Source: Gemmatimonadota bacterium (GTDB lineage Bacteria; Gemmatimonadota; Gemmatimonadetes; Longimicrobiales; Gaopeijiaceae). From it: a DNA stretch of 64,000 nucleotides. Location of the stretch: contig JAGWBQ010000002.1 in NCBI GenBank assembly GCA_021295815.1, positions 62,001 through 126,000 of the forward strand. Reading direction: 5' to 3'. The notes beneath the pieces are model-generated. The model did no database searches. It was not told where the DNA came from and was given only the letters and a program-made list of their open reading frames with translations. Positions 15,512 to 26,063 of this stretch are shown one piece after another (position 1 is the stretch's first letter; every line of letters begins with the position of its first letter). A program made the translations under genes and the position numbers.

Positions 15512-16993
15512 GTGCGACACGTGACGAGGGGGGCGGCCCTCGCGGCAATTCTGACGGCCGCAAGCGGGGGAATGCGGGCCGGGTCGGCTCAAGACGACGA
15601 CCGACTAACCGTTCCTGACGGCCGGATCGTCGGTATCGAGGAAGCCGTGCGGATAGCGCTCGACGGAAGTCGCGAGCTCGCGGCGGCACGTTTCGGAATC
15701 GCCGAAGCTTCCGGATTCGTCTCGGAGGCGTGGTCCGCCGCGCTTCCAACCGTCGATCTCAACTCGAGCTTCACCCGCAACATCAACGCCGCAGTCAATT
15801 TCCTGCCTGCTCGCGTCTTCGATTCGTCGGCAGGGGAGGACGACTACCTGGCCGTCCGCTTCGGCGCCGACAACCAGTGGAGCTCCGGGCTCTCGGTCGA
15901 ACAGGCGCTCTTTCGTCCCGAGCTGCTCAGCATCGGAGCGGCGTCGCGGCTCGAAGATCTGGAGTACGAGTCGGTCAGAGGTCAGGAGCAGGCAGTGGTC
16001 ACGCAGGTAAGATTGGCTTATTACGCCCTTCTGCTCGCCGAGGAACGGCTGCGCCTATCCCAGGAATCTCTCGCCCGGGTGGAAGCTTCTCTCGAAGAGA
16101 CCCAGGCGCGCTTCGAGGCGGGATTCGTCGAGCGGTACGACGTGCTCCGGCTTCAGGTCGAAGTGGCCACGCTGCGTCCTCGGCTCGTGGACGCCGAAAA
16201 CGAAAGAAACTCCGCAGAGCGAAATCTCGCGGCGGCCATGGACTACGGCTTCGGCGGAGGACTCGGCGTCACCGGATCGCTTTCCGAGATCGACCTGGAA
16301 ACGCCCCACGCGAACACGCCCGAGAACCGGGCGCTTCTCGAGTTCGCAGGCTCAGAAGCGGGTTCCGAGATCGAGCCTCTTTTCTCCACTTCACGCGAAC
16401 TGCGCTCCGACCTTCGGCAGCTCGACATCACCGGGGACCTTACGAGAGCCGAGCTCCGACTGGAGAAGCTGAAGTACCTGCCGAGCATCACCATTTTCGG
16501 GAATTACGCCGTGAGCGCTCAGGACAACGGCTCCCCGAACTTCTTCGCCCGAGGTGACGGTCAGCGCGCCTGGTCGCAGTTCGCGGGCATTCGCGTGAGC
16601 ATTCCGGTATTCAGAGGGCTTTCCCGAGACGCGCGCATCGACCAGAAGGCCGCGTTGGTCAGGCAGGCGGACGAGCTTCGCGAGCGGGCGGTCGATGTCG
16701 CCCGTCTGGAACTGACCACCCTGCATGAAGACGAGCTCGGAGCCAGATCGAGGGCGATCGGGCAACGCGCCGCAGTCGCTCTGGCCGAACTCGCCTTCGA
16801 GATCGCTCAGAACTCCTACGAAGAGGGGGTGGCCGACCGGCTCGATCTGATCGACGCCGAACTGGCGCTCCGGGAGAGCGAAGTGAGCTACGCGGAGGCC
16901 GTGCACGACTATCTGGTGGCACGCGCGCAACTCGATCACGCCGCCGGAACCGTGCCCCTGGTAAACGCCGATCCCCTGACATCGAACCGATGA
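15512..16993 (+). CDS. TolC-family outer-membrane efflux channel
   Basis: The 493-aa protein has an N-terminal signal (AALAAILTAASGGMRAGSAQ) and two OEP-type repeats. The first runs from IGIEEAVRIALDGSRELAAARFGIAEA with long helices ALLLAEERLRLSQESLARVEASLEETQARFEAGFVERYDVL. The second, after a mid-region with FFARGDGQRAWSQFAGIRVSIPVFRGLSRDARIDQKAALVRQADELRERAVD, ends with SYEEGVADRLDLIDAELALRESEVSY. TolC proteins trimerise into the outer-membrane exit duct of tripartite pumps. Start is a GTG; the stop overlaps the adaptor gene by 4 bp. It is the first gene of a complete channel-adaptor-RND set. Confidence 0.9.
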   Translation: MRHVTRGAALAAILTAASGGMRAGSAQDDDRLTVPDGRIVGIEEAVRIALDGSRELAAARFGIAEASGFVSEAWSAALPTVDLNSSFTRNINAAVNFLPARVFDSSAGEDDYLAVRFGADNQWSSGLSVEQALFRPELLSIGAASRLEDLEYESVRGQEQAVVTQVRLAYYALLLAEERLRLSQESLARVEASLEETQARFEAGFVERYDVLRLQVEVATLRPRLVDAENERNSAERNLAAAMDYGFGGGLGVTGSLSEIDLETPHANTPENRALLEFAGSEAGSEIEPLFSTSRELRSDLRQLDITGDLTRAELRLEKLKYLPSITIFGNYAVSAQDNGSPNFFARGDGQRAWSQFAGIRVSIPVFRGLSRDARIDQKAALVRQADELRERAVDVARLELTTLHEDELGARSRAIGQRAAVALAELAFEIAQNSYEEGVADRLDLIDAELALRESEVSYAEAVHDYLVARAQLDHAAGTVPLVNADPLTSNR

Positions 16994-18120
16994 CCACCGA
17001 AACAGCGAAATGGCTGACGAAGACCTTTCATTCGAAACGAGCTCCGGCCCGATGGACCGCGGTCGCTTGTCTCGCCGCCGGCCTTCTCTCCTGCCGGGGG
17101 ACTCCTCCTGCGGAAGGGGCGACCGACGGAGCCGCATCGGTCCAGGCCCCGGCCGGACGGGTGATCAACGTCGAGATCACGACGCTCGTCCCCATGGATT
17201 TCAGCGAGACGTTCTCCTTCACGGGGGTGGCCGAAGCCAACCGCGACGCCCGGATCTCGGCTGAGGAAGCGGGGCCGGTGCGGGAGCTCTTCGTTTCGGA
17301 AGGATCGAGAGTCGAAGCGGGAGACACCCTGCTCAAGATCGACGACCGGGTGTTGGCGTCACAGGTCGAACAGGCCCGGGCGGCGGCTGAGCTGGCCACC
17401 GAGACTTGGACGAGAACGGAGCGGCTCTACGAAGAGGAATCGATCGGGAGCGAGCTCGATTACCTGAACGCGAAATTCGCGGCCGAACAGGCCGCCGCGG
17501 CCCTGCAGGCGCTCGCGGTACGCTTGGACCGGACCAACCTTCACGCCCCTTTCGCCGGGATCGTGGATGAACTCGACATAGAGCTCGGCGAATCGGTGTC
17601 TCCCGGGCAGCCCGTCATACGCCTCGTCGACCTCTCGAGGGTCAAGGTGGTGGCCGGAGTGCCGGAACGCTTCGCCCCTGACGTACGGCCCGGTAGCAGG
17701 GCCACCATCACCTTCGACGTCCTTGCTGAACCTTTCGACGCCGCAGTGGTCCGGGTCGGCCAATCGATCGATCCCGGAAACCGCACCTTCGACGTCGAGA
17801 TGCGACTCGCCAATCGAGACGGACGCATCCGCCCAGAAATGCTGGCCAGGATCGTCCTCGACCGTCGGACAATTCCGAATGCCATCGTCGCGCCCCGGGA
17901 CGCTGTCCTCAGATCCGAGACGGGGTACATCGCATACGTCGCGGTGTCCGGCGAAGACAGGGGTGAGATCGCGGAAGCTCGGTCGGTGACCGTCGGCCCC
18001 TCGAGTGACGTTCATGCGGTGGTCGAATCCGGACTTGCCGAAGGAGACCGGCTCGTGGTGGTCGGCCATCGAGCTCTAGCGGACGGTGACCGAGTGAACG
18101 TGGTCGGAGAAAGGGAGTGA
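16990..18120 (+). CDS. RND efflux periplasmic adaptor lipoprotein
   Basis: The 376-aa membrane-fusion protein has a lipobox (VACLAAGLLSC, Cys about 35). The body shows the usual order: beta-barrel strand VINVEITTLVPMDFSETFSFTG, lipoyl half-motif DARISAEEAGPVRELFVSEG, a short helical hairpin (QVEQARAAAELATETWTRTERLYEEESI), second lipoyl half RTNLHAPFAGIVDELDIELGESVSPGQPVIRLVDLSRVKV, and a C-terminal membrane-proximal domain with APRDAVLRSETGYIAYV. It links the inner-membrane pump to the channel. ATGA overlap upstream and near-overlap downstream support operon structure. Confidence 0.92.
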   Translation: MTTETAKWLTKTFHSKRAPARWTAVACLAAGLLSCRGTPPAEGATDGAASVQAPAGRVINVEITTLVPMDFSETFSFTGVAEANRDARISAEEAGPVRELFVSEGSRVEAGDTLLKIDDRVLASQVEQARAAAELATETWTRTERLYEEESIGSELDYLNAKFAAEQAAAALQALAVRLDRTNLHAPFAGIVDELDIELGESVSPGQPVIRLVDLSRVKVVAGVPERFAPDVRPGSRATITFDVLAEPFDAAVVRVGQSIDPGNRTFDVEMRLANRDGRIRPEMLARIVLDRRTIPNAIVAPRDAVLRSETGYIAYVAVSGEDRGEIAEARSVTVGPSSDVHAVVESGLAEGDRLVVVGHRALADGDRVNVVGERE

Positions 18121-18122
18121 AG

Positions 18123-21100
18123 ATGAAGAAAGACACGGGAGGTCACGAGAAGACCGGGAGGAGATCGTTCCGCGAGTTCGCACCCACCGTCTTCGCGGTA
18201 AGGCACTCGACCTCGGTTCTGGTCCTGCTGGGTATCATCGTGCTCATGGGCTTCCTCGCCTATCGGGTCACTCCCAAGGAATCGTTTCCCGAGATCGCGG
18301 TACCGATCATCGCGGTCAACACGATTTACGCGGGAGCGTCGCCGGCCGACGTCGAGAGCCAGGTCACTCGCATTATCGAGGAAGATCTTTCGACCCTCAG
18401 CGAGATCGACGATCTGACCTCGACCTCGGTCGAGGGCTACTCGAGCATAGCCGCCGAGTTCGACCCCTCTGTGGAACTGGAGTACGCCGTTCAGAAGGTC
18501 CGGGAAAAGGTCGATCTGGCCAAGCCCGACCTTCCGACCGACGCCGAAGAGCCTTCGATCGTCGAGTTCAGCTTCTCGGAGGTCCCCATTCTCCAGGTGA
18601 ACCTCTCCGGCAACTACGACCTCGTGCGCCTTAAGGAGATTGCGGAGGACCTGGAGGATCGGCTGGAGACGCTTCCCCAGGTGCTCCGGGTGGATGTGCG
18701 AGGCGGGCTGGAGAGGGAGGTCAAGGTGGATGTCGATCTTGCCAGGCTGACCTACTACGAACTCGCTCTGAAGGACGTGATCGACCGGATCGACGAGGAG
18801 AACGTCAACTTTCCGGGCGGATCCCTTCCCGTGGGAGCCGACGACTACCTCCTAAGAGTGGACGGCGAATTCGACGATCCCGAACTCATCGAGGACCTCG
18901 TTGTCGCCATCGTCGACGGACGTCCGATCTACCTGCGGGACATCGGTTCGGTGGACTTCGGTTTCAGCGAACGGGAGAGCTATGCCCGCCTGGAAGGATC
19001 GGAAGTGGTGACCCTCGACGTGATCAAGCGCTCGGGCGCCAACATCATCGAGACGTCGGAGCTCGTCAAGGCCCAGATCGAGGCTATGGAGCCCGGCTTC
19101 CCACCCTCCACCAGAGCTGTGATCACCTCGGACCAGTCGTCCGATATCGCTCAAATGGTTTCGAGCCTCGAGAACAACATCGTTTCGGCTCTGATTCTGA
19201 TAGTCGGAATTCTTCTCTTCTTCCTCGGGGCCCGCACCTCGATCTTCGTCGCGATCTCAATTCCCACCTCCATGTTCCTCTCCTTCATCGTACTTCGGTT
19301 GATGGGGCTGACGATGAACATGGTCGTGCTCTTCTCGCTCATCCTGGCCTTGGGAATGCTCGTCGACAACGCGATCGTCGTCGTCGAAAACATCTACCGT
19401 TTCCTCGAGGAGGGCTGGTCGAGAAGGAAGGCCGCCATTAAGGGAACGGGCGAGGTCGCCATTCCGATAATCGCGGCGACGGCCACCACTCTGGCCGCCT
19501 TCATCCCGCTTCTCTTCTGGTCCGGAATCATCGGCGACTTCATGAGCTATCTTCCGAAGACGCTGATCGTGACGCTGACGAGCTCGCTCTTCGTCGCGCT
19601 CTGCATCGTGCCCACGCTGTGCTCGATGTTCATGACCCTGGACGGCGACAGGAGGCCCGGGCTCCGGCCGGCCGGACGCTGGACCCTCATCGGAGCGGGT
19701 GCGCTCGTCGTTCTGGCAGTCGCTTCGGCCAACCCTCTCGCCGCAGGACTGCTCGTGGCGACGGTCGTGGGAGTCTGGGGCGGGTACCGGCTGGTGCTCA
19801 GGAGGGCGGCCGTGTTCTTCAGGATCCGGGTTCTGGTGCGCGTTCTCGAGATCTACGAACTGGGGCTTCGCTGGTCGCTCTCGCATCGGTTGGCGCTCTT
19901 GGGGCTCACCTTGGTCGGGTTCGTAGCGGCCGCAGGGCTCTGGGGCATGTTCAGCAGAGGAGTCGAGCTCTTTCCGGAGTCGATGCCGCCCGCGCAACTG
20001 CTCGTTGACGTGAGCGCGCCGGTCGGGACCCGCTTAGAGGTCACGGACTCGCTCAGCAGGGAGGTCGAGAGAGAACTTGCCGACCTCGGCGTGACCGACG
20101 CCGAATCGATGGTGGCGGTCGTGGGGAGTTCAGGCGGAGGCGCGGACCCGCTGGGCGGCGGCGGTCCGACGGGACCCGAAGGAGGTCGCGTGACCATCTC
20201 GCTGGTCGATTACCAGCTCCGCGAGCGGGACTCCTTCGAGCTCCTGGCCGATCTCCAGACTCGGATCGGCCGCCGGATCGCCGGAGCCGAGATCACCGTG
20301 GACAAGGTGGAGGCGGGCCCCGCCCAGGGCGCCCCGGTGAGCATCGAGGTCGTCGGTGACGATCCGGAACTCCTCAAGGCTCTCTCCGACAGCGTGCTCA
20401 ACGTGCTCGAAGCTTCCTCGGCGTACCCGAAGCTCGTGGGACTCAAGAGCGATCTCGACGAGGCCCGACCACAGCTCTCCATCTCCGTCGACCGTGAATT
20501 GGCGGCCATTTTCGGTCTCAACACCACGAAGATCGGACAGGCCATCCGCAGCTCGGTGAACGGAATCGAAGCGGCGAAATTCAGAGCCGGCAACGACGAG
20601 TACGACATCGTCGTCCGACTCGACGAATCCTACCGGCAGGACCTCGACGGTCTCCGCGACCTGAGCCTCATGACCGAGGGCGGCGAGCAGATACCTCTGG
20701 TGGAAGTCGCGTCCTGGGCGGTGGAGGAAGGAGCCGGATCCATCCGCCGCAGAGACAGGTCGCGCCTGGCCACCATCACCTCCGATGTCGCGGCCGGCTA
20801 CGCCAACAACGCGGTCCTCGGCGAAGTGCAGGGCGTGCTCGCCGACTTCGAAGCAGGGCTGCCGCCGGGTTACACCATACGGTATACCGGCCAGAACGAG
20901 GATCAGGAGGAGGCGTCGGCCTTCCTGCTCACCGCGTTCATGATCGCCTTCCTGCTCATCAGCTTCATTCTCATATCGCAGTTCAACTCGGTGGTGAAGC
21001 CCGTCATCATCATGACCTCGGTCTTCATGTCCACCACGGGTGTGCTGATCGGGCTGCTCGTCTTCAACATGCCTTTCGGCATAATCAACACCGGGGTCGG

Positions 21101-21569
21101 GATCATCTCGCTCGCTGGAATCGTGGTCAACAACGCCATCATCCTGATCGACTATATCGACGTGCTGCGCAACCGGGACGGTATCGATCGTCGCGAGGCG
21201 CTGGTGCAGGGAGGCAAGACCCGGTTCCGACCGGTGGTGCTCACCGCGACCACGACCGCGCTCGGGCTGGTTCCGCTCGCGGTCGGCCTCAACTTCGACT
21301 TTTTCGGCCTTTACGGCTCCCTTTCCCCGGAGCTCTACTGGGGTGGCGAGCAGGCTGCATGGTGGGGTCCCATGGCGGTCGCCATCATCGCCGGCGTCCT
21401 CTTCGCGACCTTCCTCACGCTCGTGCTCGTGCCGGTCATGTACTCGCTGGTCGACGACATGAGCGCTTTCTTCGCCAAGCACTTCTCGACCCGCGGACGC
21501 CAGGTGGCGCCGGTGCCGGTCCCGGCGGGCGGAGTCATGCGCTCTCCGAGCTCGGCTCCAGAGGCGTGA
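18123..21569 (+). CDS. RND-family efflux pump permease
   Basis: About 1148 aa from ATG 18123 with GGGAG 5 bp upstream; GTG 18117 is an alternative. The AcrB-type layout has a first helix VLVLLGIIVLMGFLAYRV, porter domain beginning SFPEIAVPIIAVNTIYAGASPADVESQVT, and helices with the proton-relay region ALGMLVDNAIVVVENIYRFLEEG. A second half repeats this with NAIILIDYIDVLRNRDGIDRREA and FRPVVLTATTTALGLVPLAVG. Between the halves (about residues 505-600) two extra hydrophobic helices replace the usual short cytoplasmic link. Drug, metal or lipid substrate cannot be told; the adaptor type suggests the HAE1 group. Confidence 0.92.
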   Translation: MKKDTGGHEKTGRRSFREFAPTVFAVRHSTSVLVLLGIIVLMGFLAYRVTPKESFPEIAVPIIAVNTIYAGASPADVESQVTRIIEEDLSTLSEIDDLTSTSVEGYSSIAAEFDPSVELEYAVQKVREKVDLAKPDLPTDAEEPSIVEFSFSEVPILQVNLSGNYDLVRLKEIAEDLEDRLETLPQVLRVDVRGGLEREVKVDVDLARLTYYELALKDVIDRIDEENVNFPGGSLPVGADDYLLRVDGEFDDPELIEDLVVAIVDGRPIYLRDIGSVDFGFSERESYARLEGSEVVTLDVIKRSGANIIETSELVKAQIEAMEPGFPPSTRAVITSDQSSDIAQMVSSLENNIVSALILIVGILLFFLGARTSIFVAISIPTSMFLSFIVLRLMGLTMNMVVLFSLILALGMLVDNAIVVVENIYRFLEEGWSRRKAAIKGTGEVAIPIIAATATTLAAFIPLLFWSGIIGDFMSYLPKTLIVTLTSSLFVALCIVPTLCSMFMTLDGDRRPGLRPAGRWTLIGAGALVVLAVASANPLAAGLLVATVVGVWGGYRLVLRRAAVFFRIRVLVRVLEIYELGLRWSLSHRLALLGLTLVGFVAAAGLWGMFSRGVELFPESMPPAQLLVDVSAPVGTRLEVTDSLSREVERELADLGVTDAESMVAVVGSSGGGADPLGGGGPTGPEGGRVTISLVDYQLRERDSFELLADLQTRIGRRIAGAEITVDKVEAGPAQGAPVSIEVVGDDPELLKALSDSVLNVLEASSAYPKLVGLKSDLDEARPQLSISVDRELAAIFGLNTTKIGQAIRSSVNGIEAAKFRAGNDEYDIVVRLDESYRQDLDGLRDLSLMTEGGEQIPLVEVASWAVEEGAGSIRRRDRSRLATITSDVAAGYANNAVLGEVQGVLADFEAGLPPGYTIRYTGQNEDQEEASAFLLTAFMIAFLLISFILISQFNSVVKPVIIMTSVFMSTTGVLIGLLVFNMPFGIINTGVGIISLAGIVVNNAIILIDYIDVLRNRDGIDRREALVQGGKTRFRPVVLTATTTALGLVPLAVGLNFDFFGLYGSLSPELYWGGEQAAWWGPMAVAIIAGVLFATFLTLVLVPVMYSLVDDMSAFFAKHFSTRGRQVAPVPVPAGGVMRSPSSAPEA

Positions 21570-21823
21570 GCCCGGACGGCGGAAAGGCCGGCCTGCTGCG
21601 GATCGCGTTAGTTCTGGCGGCCTACTGTGTCGCCGCCTTTCTCCTGGTCCTGCCGCTGGCGTCCTTCCTCCGGCGTGCGCTGGTGCTTCCCGAGAGCTTC
21701 GACACGCTAGTGGGCTGGGGTCTCGTGGTGGGAGGTGCGGCGGCGGTGCTTTTCGCCTGGCACTATCCCAGGCTGGGCTGGCACGGCGGCGCCGCGCCCG
21801 AGGACGAAGCTTCCGGGGAATGA
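21566..21823 (+). CDS. Small two-helix membrane protein at end of efflux operon
   Basis: The 85-aa product starts at a GTG inside the pump stop (GTGA) and its own stop overlaps the next ATG. Two transmembrane helices (IALVLAAYCVAAFLLVLPLASFL and TLVGWGLVVGGAAAVLFAWHY) and an acidic tail are visible. Its sequence matches no family I know. Position suggests an accessory subunit of the pump, but translational coupling is the only evidence. Confidence 0.6.
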   Translation: MSPDGGKAGLLRIALVLAAYCVAAFLLVLPLASFLRRALVLPESFDTLVGWGLVVGGAAAVLFAWHYPRLGWHGGAAPEDEASGE

Positions 21824-23424
21824 GCGATCGGCCTGCCGGTGAGGGGGCCGGTGCGCACTCGAAGCGCGCACTCGGAACGATCTCGATCCGAGCCCTCCTG
21901 CCCGAAGATTGGTCGGAGGTCGCCGACATCTACCGGCAGGGGATCGAGACCGGGGACGCGACGTTCGAGACGGAGGTGCCCGCATGGGAGGAATGGGACC
22001 GGTCCAAGGAGCCCCATTCACGCCTGGTTGCAGTGGCCGAGGAACTGACCGGCGGAGATTCGGGTTCAGGCAGGGAAAGGATCGTGGGGTTCGCCGCGCT
22101 CTCGCCGGTATCCGGCCGCTGCTGCTACGCAGGGGTCGCGGAGGTCATGGTCTACGTGGGTGCGCCCTGGCGAGGTCGCGGCCTCGGACGAAAACTGCTA
22201 AGCTCTCTGATCGAATCCGGTGAGCGTAACGGCATATGGACGATGCTCGCCGGGATATTTCCCGAAAACGCCGCTTCGGTAAGAATTCATGACGCGCTCG
22301 GCTTCCGGCTGATCGGAAGCCACCGCCGGATCGGTCGGATGGCCGACGGACGCTGGCGCGACACTCTCCTCCTCGAGCGCAGGAGCGAGCTCGTCGGGGT
22401 CGATTCCGGCACCGGCGACACACCGAGCGCGGCGTCGCGCCGCCGTAGCAGGCTTGGCTCAGAGGCTGTCAGGTCACATGCCATGTCGACTGCCCAACGT
22501 CGCAGTCTGGTCGACAACCTGGGCGCCGACCGCCTCAAGCGGGGAGCGGCTCTCGCTCCGCTGACCACATTCCGGATCGGCGGACCCGCCGAACTCCTCT
22601 ACGAAGCGCACACCGCCGAAGAGCTCGCTTCCTCGGTTCTCGCGGCCCGCCGTCTCGGCGCCCCTCACTTCGTCATGGGGCGGGGGGCGAACATCCTGGT
22701 GGGTGATCTGGGATTCCGCGGCCTGATCATTCTCAACCGGGTCGCCGGGATCGACTTCCTCGCCGGCGGTCGCGTGCGGGCGGGAGCGGGCGTGGACTCC
22801 TTTCCGGACCTCATCAACGCCACCGTCGAGCGTGGATTGGGAGGGCTCCACCACTTCGTGGGCATCCCGAGCAGCATCGGCGGAGCGCTTTGGCAGAACT
22901 TGCACTTCCTGGAACCCGAACCGGCTCGCAAACGCACCGTCTTCATCGAAGAAGTGCTGGAAGAGGCGGAGATACTCAGCGAAGAGGGCGAGAGACGAAC
23001 TGTCCCTGTGGAGTACTTCGAGTTCGGCTACGACCGGAGCATTCTCCACGAGCGCGACGACATCGTCCTCTCGGCCACTTTCCGACTCGCGCCGGCTCCG
23101 AAGGTGGAGCTCAGACGGGTGATGCGGGAGAATCTCGAGTGGCGGGACGAGCGCCACCCCGACCTCTGGCTCTATCCGAGCGCCGGCTCCATCTTCAAGA
23201 AGATCGAAGGCGTCGGAGCGGGGAGGCTGATCGACGAGTGCGGCCTGAAGGGTCGGGTCGACGGGGCGGCGGCCATCTTCCACAAGCACGCGAACATCAT
23301 TGTGAACCTGGGAGGCGCGACCGCCGCCGAGGTGCGCCGGCTGATCGACCTGGCCCGCGAAACCGTGGCGCGAGAGCAGGGACATGAGCTTGTCACCGAG
23401 ATCGACTTCATCGGGGAGTTCTAA
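21820..23424 (+). CDS. murB: GNAT acetyltransferase fused to UDP-N-acetylmuramate dehydrogenase (MurB)
   Basis: One 534-aa frame carries two enzymes. Residues about 20-195 form a phosphinothricin-acetyltransferase-like GNAT domain (SIRALLPEDWSEVADIYRQG, VAEVMVYVGAPWRGRGLGRKLL, GIFPENAASVRIHDALGFR). After a basic linker, residues about 222-534 are MurB, which reduces enolpyruvyl-UDP-GlcNAc in peptidoglycan synthesis. FAD-site motifs are TTFRIGGPAELL and GRGANILVGD, then GIPSSIGGALWQNLHFL, catalytic Ser457 in SAGSIFKKI and Glu527 in VTEIDFIGEF. An internal ATG at 22483 (residue 222) could make free MurB. ATGA overlap with the preceding gene. No stop lies between the domains. Confidence 0.88.
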   Translation: MSDRPAGEGAGAHSKRALGTISIRALLPEDWSEVADIYRQGIETGDATFETEVPAWEEWDRSKEPHSRLVAVAEELTGGDSGSGRERIVGFAALSPVSGRCCYAGVAEVMVYVGAPWRGRGLGRKLLSSLIESGERNGIWTMLAGIFPENAASVRIHDALGFRLIGSHRRIGRMADGRWRDTLLLERRSELVGVDSGTGDTPSAASRRRSRLGSEAVRSHAMSTAQRRSLVDNLGADRLKRGAALAPLTTFRIGGPAELLYEAHTAEELASSVLAARRLGAPHFVMGRGANILVGDLGFRGLIILNRVAGIDFLAGGRVRAGAGVDSFPDLINATVERGLGGLHHFVGIPSSIGGALWQNLHFLEPEPARKRTVFIEEVLEEAEILSEEGERRTVPVEYFEFGYDRSILHERDDIVLSATFRLAPAPKVELRRVMRENLEWRDERHPDLWLYPSAGSIFKKIEGVGAGRLIDECGLKGRVDGAAAIFHKHANIIVNLGGATAAEVRRLIDLARETVAREQGHELVTEIDFIGEF

Positions 23425-23525
23425 ACGCTGGAACTCTTCGGTGGGCGGTCCCTCCCCCTCGCCGTAGAAAGCTCGTCGACGACCGTATCCGCACTGGCGT
23501 CCTCGCGAGTTGGCCCACGGGGGTG

Positions 23526-26063
23526 CTAGAGCGCCTCGAAAGCTCTCCGCTGCCGCTCGAGCCGCGCGTCACGCTCCGCTGCAAAACGTCTCATGGCCGA
23601 GAAGATCGAATCCGGGTCGAGGCCGGCCTCGGCGATCACATCGTCTTCGGTGCCGCCGGTAAGCCAGCGATCGTCCGCGTCTCCATAAAGTGAGTATTCC
23701 TCGGTGAGCGGACCGAGATCGGGAAGCGGCGGCACGCGCTTGGTCATCGTGCTTACAACCATGGAGTCGAAGCGCGACGACGCCGGATAGATCTTCTTAC
23801 GGTACTCCTCGGGCTGATCCGCGAAGAGCTCCGGGCTGATCACCGATGCCACCCTCACGTTGACCCCCTCGTCCTCGAGACGGTCGAGCGCCCGAACCAC
23901 GTTCACGGTCGAGCTCGATCCCTGGGCCCACACGGTCCCCATGGGAGGAAGGTCGGGATCGTAGTCTCTGATGAGGTAGATGCCCTTGGCGGACGCGCGC
24001 GGATCGGTGTCGGCGAAGCGGCTGCGATCCGCAACGGGCGAGTCGGGACGGGCCACGTGGATGACGATGATGCCGACCTTGGGCTCCTGCACGGCTTTCG
24101 CGACCGCAGCGAAATAACCGGGCGCCACGTCGTTGTAGTCCCAGAAGTAGAGGTTGACGACCTGGTCTCTCGGGAAGAGCGTCCACACCTGAGGGGCGAA
24201 GATGCCGAAATGGGTCCTCGCATCGGCCGCCGTCTCCGGCCCCGAGTGACCCGCCAGAACGGTCAGCACGCCCAGCCGGAAGGGCGAGTCCTGATTCTGC
24301 TGGCTGAAGACTCGCGCCGGCGTGTACATGAGTGGCGTGAAAGCCCCGTAGGTTCCCGAGATGCCCCAGAGTCCGGAGTGAAGATCGGGATCGGCGGATG
24401 CGGTCTGGTTCACGACGCCGATCATGGTGGAGGCGTTGACCGCCTCCTGAATGCCCGCCTTCAGCCGTGTCCCCGAGGGGTTGGCGACGGGGTCGTAGTG
24501 GCCGAAGAAGTGGGCCTTCTCCACGTTGATCGATCCCGAAAGGTCGGCGGCGACGGTCAGGAATCGGCCTTCGGTCACGTGGTTCATCCACGCTCCGATC
24601 TCGCTGATCGCGCGGCGGCTACCCCACTTCCTGCCCGGCGGCATGAAGAGGCTGATCGTCCGCTCCACCTCGCGTCCGGTGGCGGGGTCGGTCGCCCTGA
24701 CCTCGACCGGCTCCTCGGGCAGTCCCCCCGGGGTCAGCCGTTCGTCGACGAAGGGATCCTTCGTAACGTCGAAACGGAGTTTGGGCGAGCGTTCGAGCCC
24801 GTCCGCGATCGAGACGACGCGCTCCGCTATCCACTCGCCCAGTCCGTTCCGGTCCAGGGTGGAAAGAGCGATATCGACGTTGGTCTTGAACTGAACGAGC
24901 TTTTCCGCCTCGGTCGACGGTGCCGGATCCCCGAGCCCCTCGAAATCGACTCCGAAGCGCTTCTCGAAGGTGTCGGCGAGCGCCACGAAGTAGGGATCGT
25001 TGAGCGCCATGGCGTACGGATGGCTGTCGTAGCTCACCATCTGCGGACCGTAACCGGGAATTCCGCCGTTCTCGGCGGCCGGCCACCATCCCTTGACCGT
25101 CGGGCCGATCGCGATGTGCGGGCGCCGATCATCCGCCGGCCAGCGCTCCATCGCGAACATCGCGGCAAGCACTTGGTCGAAATCGCTGCCGTCCTCAAGG
25201 CTGAGCACGTTCCATCCGTACGACGACCATTGCTGAGCGAGATCGTAGCCGTCGACGTCGGCGACGACTCCGCCGACGAGTTCGTCGTCGATGCCGGCGT
25301 TGTTGTAGGAGAGCAGGATGCGGAGCCGCTTGCCCACCCTCTGCGCCACCGCAGCGGTCTTGAGCTCCTGGGCGTGGCCCTCGGTCATGGCGAACTCGCC
25401 TTCGAGCGCGAGAATCTTAAGGCTCTCGGGCGCTCCGGCGTAATCCCAGAAGACCGCCTTGCCTGCAGATGTGGAGATTCCTATCCCCGACGGGCCGCCG
25501 TTGACGTCGTTGGTGACGTCGGTGCTTTCGGCGTGGCCCATCAACGGACGGATGCCTCTGATTCCGGCCTCGCGGAAGAGCGGGTGGTCCGCAAGCCCCA
25601 GGTCGTCGAGAAGCGTCTTCACCGCCCCTGGACTCCGTCTGAAGCCGAGGCAGTCGACAGGCAGGACGGCGTCCTCGGGATCGAAGCCGTAGCGCGGGTC
25701 GCCCGTGGCCCGATGTTGACGACCCAGGGCGGCGTAGAGGATCATCCAGAGGGCGTAGCAGGTGGGAATGCAGTGCCCTCCGGAAAGCATGAAGCGGTCG
25801 GCGAACGGGTGCTTGGGTTCCCGGAGATCGTATGAGAGTCCTCCGAGCTCGGGGCCGGCCAGGTGCGCCGCGACGTTGTACGGCGTGTATGCCAAAGGTC
25901 CCCCGAAATGACCCGATCCCCGGTAGTTTCCGAGAATGGTCAGTAGCATCGCCGTGAGAAAGGAGACTTCCTCGAACCGCTCCTTGTCGTAGGCGGGGAG
26001 GTCCACGGGAAGGGGTCGGTTCCGGTGGTCTCTACCGGCGAACTGAAGCGTCACGGTCTTCAC
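23526..26063 (-). CDS. Large transketolase-like thiamine-diphosphate enzyme
   Basis: At 845 aa this is well above the usual transketolase length of about 620-700. ThDP-binding features are the GGHCIPTCYALW region (95-106) where transketolases have a GHGS-type motif, ALEGEFAMTEGHAQELKTAA to LSYNNAGIDD (219-260), and TVKGWWPAAENGG. The middle Pyr-like domain has ADLSGSINVEKAHFF, GSSS and LAGHSGPETAADARTHFGIFAPQVWTLFP, followed by a C-terminal transketolase-C domain (GTVWAQGSSSTVNVVRALDRLEDEGVNVRV). It probably transfers two-carbon ketol units in the pentose-phosphate network, but phosphoketolase- or other variants are not excluded. It is monocistronic or follows the 51-aa gene on the same strand. 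Confidence 0.78.
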   Translation of the reverse strand: MKTVTLQFAGRDHRNRPLPVDLPAYDKERFEEVSFLTAMLLTILGNYRGSGHFGGPLAYTPYNVAAHLAGPELGGLSYDLREPKHPFADRFMLSGGHCIPTCYALWMILYAALGRQHRATGDPRYGFDPEDAVLPVDCLGFRRSPGAVKTLLDDLGLADHPLFREAGIRGIRPLMGHAESTDVTNDVNGGPSGIGISTSAGKAVFWDYAGAPESLKILALEGEFAMTEGHAQELKTAAVAQRVGKRLRILLSYNNAGIDDELVGGVVADVDGYDLAQQWSSYGWNVLSLEDGSDFDQVLAAMFAMERWPADDRRPHIAIGPTVKGWWPAAENGGIPGYGPQMVSYDSHPYAMALNDPYFVALADTFEKRFGVDFEGLGDPAPSTEAEKLVQFKTNVDIALSTLDRNGLGEWIAERVVSIADGLERSPKLRFDVTKDPFVDERLTPGGLPEEPVEVRATDPATGREVERTISLFMPPGRKWGSRRAISEIGAWMNHVTEGRFLTVAADLSGSINVEKAHFFGHYDPVANPSGTRLKAGIQEAVNASTMIGVVNQTASADPDLHSGLWGISGTYGAFTPLMYTPARVFSQQNQDSPFRLGVLTVLAGHSGPETAADARTHFGIFAPQVWTLFPRDQVVNLYFWDYNDVAPGYFAAVAKAVQEPKVGIIVIHVARPDSPVADRSRFADTDPRASAKGIYLIRDYDPDLPPMGTVWAQGSSSTVNVVRALDRLEDEGVNVRVASVISPELFADQPEEYRKKIYPASSRFDSMVVSTMTKRVPPLPDLGPLTEEYSLYGDADDRWLTGGTEDDVIAEAGLDPDSIFSAMRRFAAERDARLERQRRAFEAL

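Follow-up and report, generated by a model that had tools for sequence, protein, structure and literature searches.

The stretch of DNA analyzed here (the window; 64,000 nucleotides) comes from a 2.47-Mb draft genome that is in 35 contigs and 96% complete. Positions 21820 to 23424 of its forward strand form a single open frame, running from an ATG to a TAA, with 534 codons, a 534-amino-acid product, and no internal stops. It begins with a GNAT acetyltransferase domain and ends with MurB, and it lies deep within a contig that is 126 kb or longer. An earlier note on this DNA had described a GNAT and a MurB in one open frame, joined by a basic linker. The frame and its coordinates were confirmed, library searches confirmed both domains, and the linker is indeed basic. 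The locus is organized as follows:

15512 to 16993, forward strand: outer-membrane efflux protein, TolC-type (PF02321)
16990 to 18120, forward strand: membrane-fusion subunit, HlyD/CusB-type (PF16576, PF13437)
18117 to 21569, forward strand: RND efflux pump of the AcrB family, located 5' of GNAT and in the same orientation (PF00873)
21820 to 22404, forward strand: GNAT (PAT/ArsN1-like) domain, residues 1 to 195 (Pfam/NCBIfam and 33 relatives with a readable C-terminus)
22405 to 22482, forward strand: linker of 26 residues, 196 to 221 (GC by codon position; gene ends of relatives)
22483 to 23424, forward strand: MurB domain, residues 222 to 534, and the stop (Pfam/NCBIfam, alignment with relatives, AlphaFold)
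23526 to 26063, reverse strand: thiamine-diphosphate transketolase-like enzyme, convergent with murB (PF00456, PF22613)

The size and sequence of the transketolase-like enzyme suggest that it is a phosphoketolase. There is also a short frame between the AcrB and GNAT genes (21570 to 21823, at most about 80 amino acids), which is rich in hydrophobic residues and overlaps the GNAT start by ATGA. A longer frame around these positions had no Pfam match. We saw no ars operon beside the GNAT gene.

Pfam places the GNAT domain at approximately residues 23 to 187, with a PF00583 score of 43 bits (cut-off, 20.7). The acetyl-CoA loop is present as RGRGLG at residues 118 to 123 (pattern used, R/Q-x-x-G-x-G/A). 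The score and the loop together place this part in the GNAT superfamily. The solved proteins closest to it are phosphinothricin N-acetyltransferases. However, its NCBIfam scores were below the equivalog cut-offs, at 123.9 bits for NF040503 (ArsN1a; cut-off, 170) and 53.3 bits for NF040502 (cut-off, 300). By these comparisons, the GNAT part is related to the PAT/ArsN1 group, and we have not filed it as an equivalog member or assigned a substrate, for which a score above these cut-offs would be required. In this group, the characterized members are acetyltransferases that act on the alpha-amino group of glutamate-like antibiotics (PMC6465285).

The MurB part is recognized at approximately residues 237 to 533 by TIGR00179 (157.2 bits; cut-off, 144.5) and by the MurB_C model PF02873 (81.7 bits; cut-off, 27). 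Both scores exceed the curated cut-offs and the catalytic Ser and Glu are present, which places it in the MurB family. In an AlphaFold model of the fusion, the MurB part (residues 221 to 534) was confident except for two short stretches. Residues 1 to 219 had no confident model because the alignment contained no GNAT sequences, and the model does not inform on domain packing.

All MurB catalytic residues had been described as kept. This holds for Ser457 (in the GSxF motif) and the C-terminal Glu527, which are invariant in an alignment with 22 relatives. It does not hold for the Arg of the YRxS motif, which belongs to the active site of well-studied MurBs. Here, that Arg is replaced by Asp405 (23032 to 23034), so that the motif reads YDxS. 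The replacement is lineage-wide: 89 of 90 related MurB loci (L002 to L093) have YDxS, and all 23 aligned sequences have the Asp. Because the related loci share it, YDxS is a trait of these Gemmatimonadota MurBs, and neither damage nor a defect of the fusion. We did not treat the Arg as MurB-defining, because many related genomes depend on a single MurB that lacks it. How the YDxS MurBs work without this Arg may merit a separate study. The relatives also share with this MurB approximately eight additional residues that follow the QN motif (WQNLHFLEPEPARKR; 22891 to 22950, approximately residues 358 to 377) and are missing from the best-matching solved MurBs.

The fusion was sought in relatives, which was the check proposed in the earlier note. 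The named relatives found by sequence were nearly all Gemmatimonadota. A whole-protein search found no match spanning GNAT and MurB in 58 relatives; the two domains matched at separate places. There was no second fusion among 63 loci fetched from the genome collection, and no spanning match among the matches listed for a 395-genome sample of the phylum (three candidates scored per genome). None of the papers found described a GNAT-MurB fusion. A few matches began before MurB (L031 from residue 171, and G074 and G080, which have a stop), and these were taken as alignment extension. L031 was rejected as a second fusion, its upstream frame not being GNAT-like. A conserved functional fusion would be present in several related species, and this pattern was not found. 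Instead, the relatives have separate MurB and GNAT genes, mostly unlinked or convergent, and their GNAT gene has its own stop codon.

Homology of the GNAT part to its relatives begins at approximately residues 15 to 23 and extends to a conserved native C-terminus, ERRS-ELVGVD. Among the 33 relatives whose GNAT end could be read, the protein stops exactly six residues past the conserved ERRS in 30. Their usual terminus is ERRSxVxGVD followed by a stop (almost always TGA or TAG among those read), whereas the fused frame has ERRSELVGVD and then a serine codon. The six native terminal residues are kept. Therefore, the GNAT domain is complete, and only its stop is gone. Across 121 same-family genomes, most GNAT matches that reach the C-terminus hit a stop there, and a few end earlier. 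One match (G020) continued to residue 204 without a stop, yet the MurB gene of that genome is on a different contig. Two positions at this junction matter for what follows:

22405 to 22407, forward strand: TCC (Ser196) at the ancestral GNAT stop position (DNA comparison)
22446 to 22448, forward strand: TAG in frame +2, the sole stop in any forward frame from 22313 to 22490

Separate genes in close relatives had been proposed as a sign of a read error or a local mutation in this genome. The first of these belongs to a broader possibility, that the true genome has a stop between the two genes or that the contig is misjoined. The fusion does occur in a single draft genome (35 contigs), and the genomes compared included none of the same genus. 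Furthermore, if one base were missing upstream, the GNAT frame would end at the 22446 TAG, 34 bases before the MurB ATG. However, no single-base substitution, insertion, or deletion at the 22405 site restores a stop, which makes a sequencing error at that position unlikely. The GNAT frame is also intact up to its exact native C-terminus, and both genes are single-copy and far from a contig end. We consider an assembly or sequencing artefact unlikely, and the fused frame is very probably real. The difference from the relatives thus points to a local mutation rather than to a read error.

The 78-base linker (22405 to 22482) spans the former stop and intergenic DNA. Its GC contents at the first, second, and third codon positions are 0.62, 0.81, and 0.73, with no coding periodicity, compared to 0.71, 0.44, and 0.81 for MurB. 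A second-position value of 0.81 was reached by just 0.4% of 1851 windows of 26 codons from neighbouring genes. By this comparison, the linker appears to be former intergenic DNA that is now read through, because the GNAT stop position and the native MurB start (see below) bracket it. Approximately 63% of shuffled linkers had no in-frame stop. Therefore, an open path through the linker needs no special cause. Once the GNAT stop was lost, a chance in-frame run would need a stop-free linker and a 1-in-3 phase, which is not improbable. The end of the AcrB gene (21504 to 21519) and the start of the linker at the lost stop (22406 to 22421) form a 16-nucleotide inverted repeat (94%). Its position is suggestive of a breakpoint, at about chance level: the same 4.5 kb has 11 inverted pairs, and by a rough estimate chance would give about one of this quality. 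We did not adopt it as a breakpoint trace.

The gene order is also rearranged. At linked loci of relatives, MurB and AcrB are on opposite strands with AcrB 3' of MurB (13 of 13), and MurB and GNAT are convergent (4 of 4), 2 to 6 kb apart with other genes between them. In the window, AcrB, GNAT, and MurB are all on the forward strand. The efflux cluster itself (outer-membrane protein, membrane-fusion protein, and AcrB) is found close to murB across the family as a conserved feature (L088, L032, and L043), and GNAT is downstream of AcrB on the same strand in L088, L034, and L036. Genes found around MurB in relatives encode a DinB-like protein, two alpha/beta hydrolases, a DUF4442 protein, and a nitronate monooxygenase. 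When the L043 DinB-like protein, two hydrolases, and nitronate monooxygenase were compared to the source genome, none of the four matched (a search with no formal positive control). In the relatives' loci, the transketolase-like gene was not seen as a neighbour of murB. At 2.5 Mb, the source genome is smaller than those of most relatives: many of their genomes are 3 to 5 Mb, and a few are smaller than the source genome.

The initial Met of the relatives' MurB proteins aligns with M222 of the fusion. For example, L034 begins with MTLTTDSKQALSEALGADRIELD, and the fusion from M222 reads MSTAQRRSLVDNLGADRLKRG. On this alignment, the ATG at 22483, which had been put forward as a candidate internal start, is the native start of MurB. 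The source genome has one MurB_C (PF02873) match, and we found no second MurB copy in this assembly, which is approximately 96% complete. Therefore, the fused frame must supply MurB. Each of the 27 genomes counted had a single MurB_C match. Two relatives (G058 and G089) each have a second MurB-like gene, which is 58 to 60% identical to the fused MurB.

This raises the possibility of two products from one frame, with MurB made mainly by internal initiation at 22483 and the GNAT-MurB read-through being minor or non-functional. Initiation at this ATG is possible. It is the native start of an essential enzyme for which one copy was found, and a short AGGT precedes it by 10 nucleotides. However, the ribosome-binding energy there is ordinary (38% of nearby positions are equal or better), and no sigma-70-like promoter was found from 21500 to 23600, a consensus that may not apply in this phylum. 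We regard two products as a plausible explanation that falls somewhat short of probable. It overlaps our preferred explanation, described below, which does not fix how much of each product is made.

A fusion that was selected as a bifunctional enzyme is a different matter. Here, GNAT would acetylate a peptidoglycan precursor or amino sugar, or it would dimerize MurB, and the fusion would couple both activities. Both domains are full length with their key motifs (RGRGLG at residues 118 to 123; Ser457 and Glu527), and other MurB fusions are known, such as MurC-MurB of Verrucomicrobium spinosum (PMC4803751). However, the fusion was in no relative searched, the GNAT and MurB genes are not adjacent in most of them, and the linker resembles former intergenic DNA. 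The studied relatives of the GNAT part also acetylate glutamate-like amines, not sugars (PMC6465285). We think that this explanation is very unlikely. The earlier suggestion of a bifunctional protein that acetylates a cell-wall or precursor molecule found no support. No evidence connected the GNAT part to cell-wall precursors, and the characterized PAT/ArsN1 members act on glutamate-like antibiotics (PMC6465285). A related idea is that a newly fixed bifunctional enzyme has been caught soon after its origin, with GNAT acting on a precursor or inhibitor connected to MurB, or dimerizing MurB and changing its control. That is highly improbable. A joint role for GNAT and MurB has no positive support, and two domains with their old jobs are most likely.

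Our preferred explanation, which we consider probable, is a lineage-restricted accidental fusion that arose by rearrangement with deletions and stop loss, and in which the domains keep separate activities. In the relatives, a PAT/ArsN1-like GNAT gene follows an RND-pump cluster, and murB is a separate gene that, when linked, is a few kilobases away and in the opposite orientation. In this lineage, a rearrangement with deletions would have moved murB to a position immediately downstream of GNAT, with both genes on one strand. The simplest account is that murB was inverted or transposed and its neighbours were lost. With the GNAT stop lost, the former intergenic DNA (78 bases) would have become an in-frame path into murB. 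Translation from the ATG at 21820 would produce a predicted 57-kDa protein, and we infer that this protein is made and that both of its domains work, presumably with no functional coupling. The GNAT domain would acetylate a small amine, and the MurB domain would reduce UDP-GlcNAc-enolpyruvate. The native ATG at 22483 may also yield some stand-alone MurB. If this explanation is right, the locus is a clear and traceable example of the birth of a bacterial gene fusion, in which a rearrangement, a stop loss, and an intergenic linker joined an essential enzyme to an unrelated domain. It is also a caution that a domain pair from one genome should not be read as joint function.

Each part of the fusion has known counterparts. 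The GNAT part is homologous over residues 20 to 188 to the ArsN1/phosphinothricin N-acetyltransferases (9igk, 4jxq, and 5dwm; Pseudomonas putida ArsN1, PMC6465285). It differs from them in falling below the NCBIfam equivalog cut-offs, in being encoded behind an RND pump, and in its fusion to MurB. The whole MurB part is homologous to the stand-alone MurB 4pyt (E = 7.5e-37) and to the type II MurB of Staphylococcus aureus, 1hsk (E = 1.3e-29). The fused MurB keeps the Ser and Glu of these enzymes. It differs from them in its N-terminal GNAT, in having YDxS instead of YRxS, and in the approximately eight additional residues that follow the QN motif. The closest parallel for the fusion itself is MurC-MurB of V. 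spinosum (PMC4803751), in which MurB is likewise the C-terminal half of a single-frame, linker-joined, lineage-confined fusion. However, the V. spinosum partner is MurC, which acts next to MurB in the pathway (PMC4803751), whereas the partner here is an unrelated GNAT. MurC-MurB is also common to specific lineages of Verrucomicrobia (PMC4803751), whereas GNAT-MurB is in one genome.
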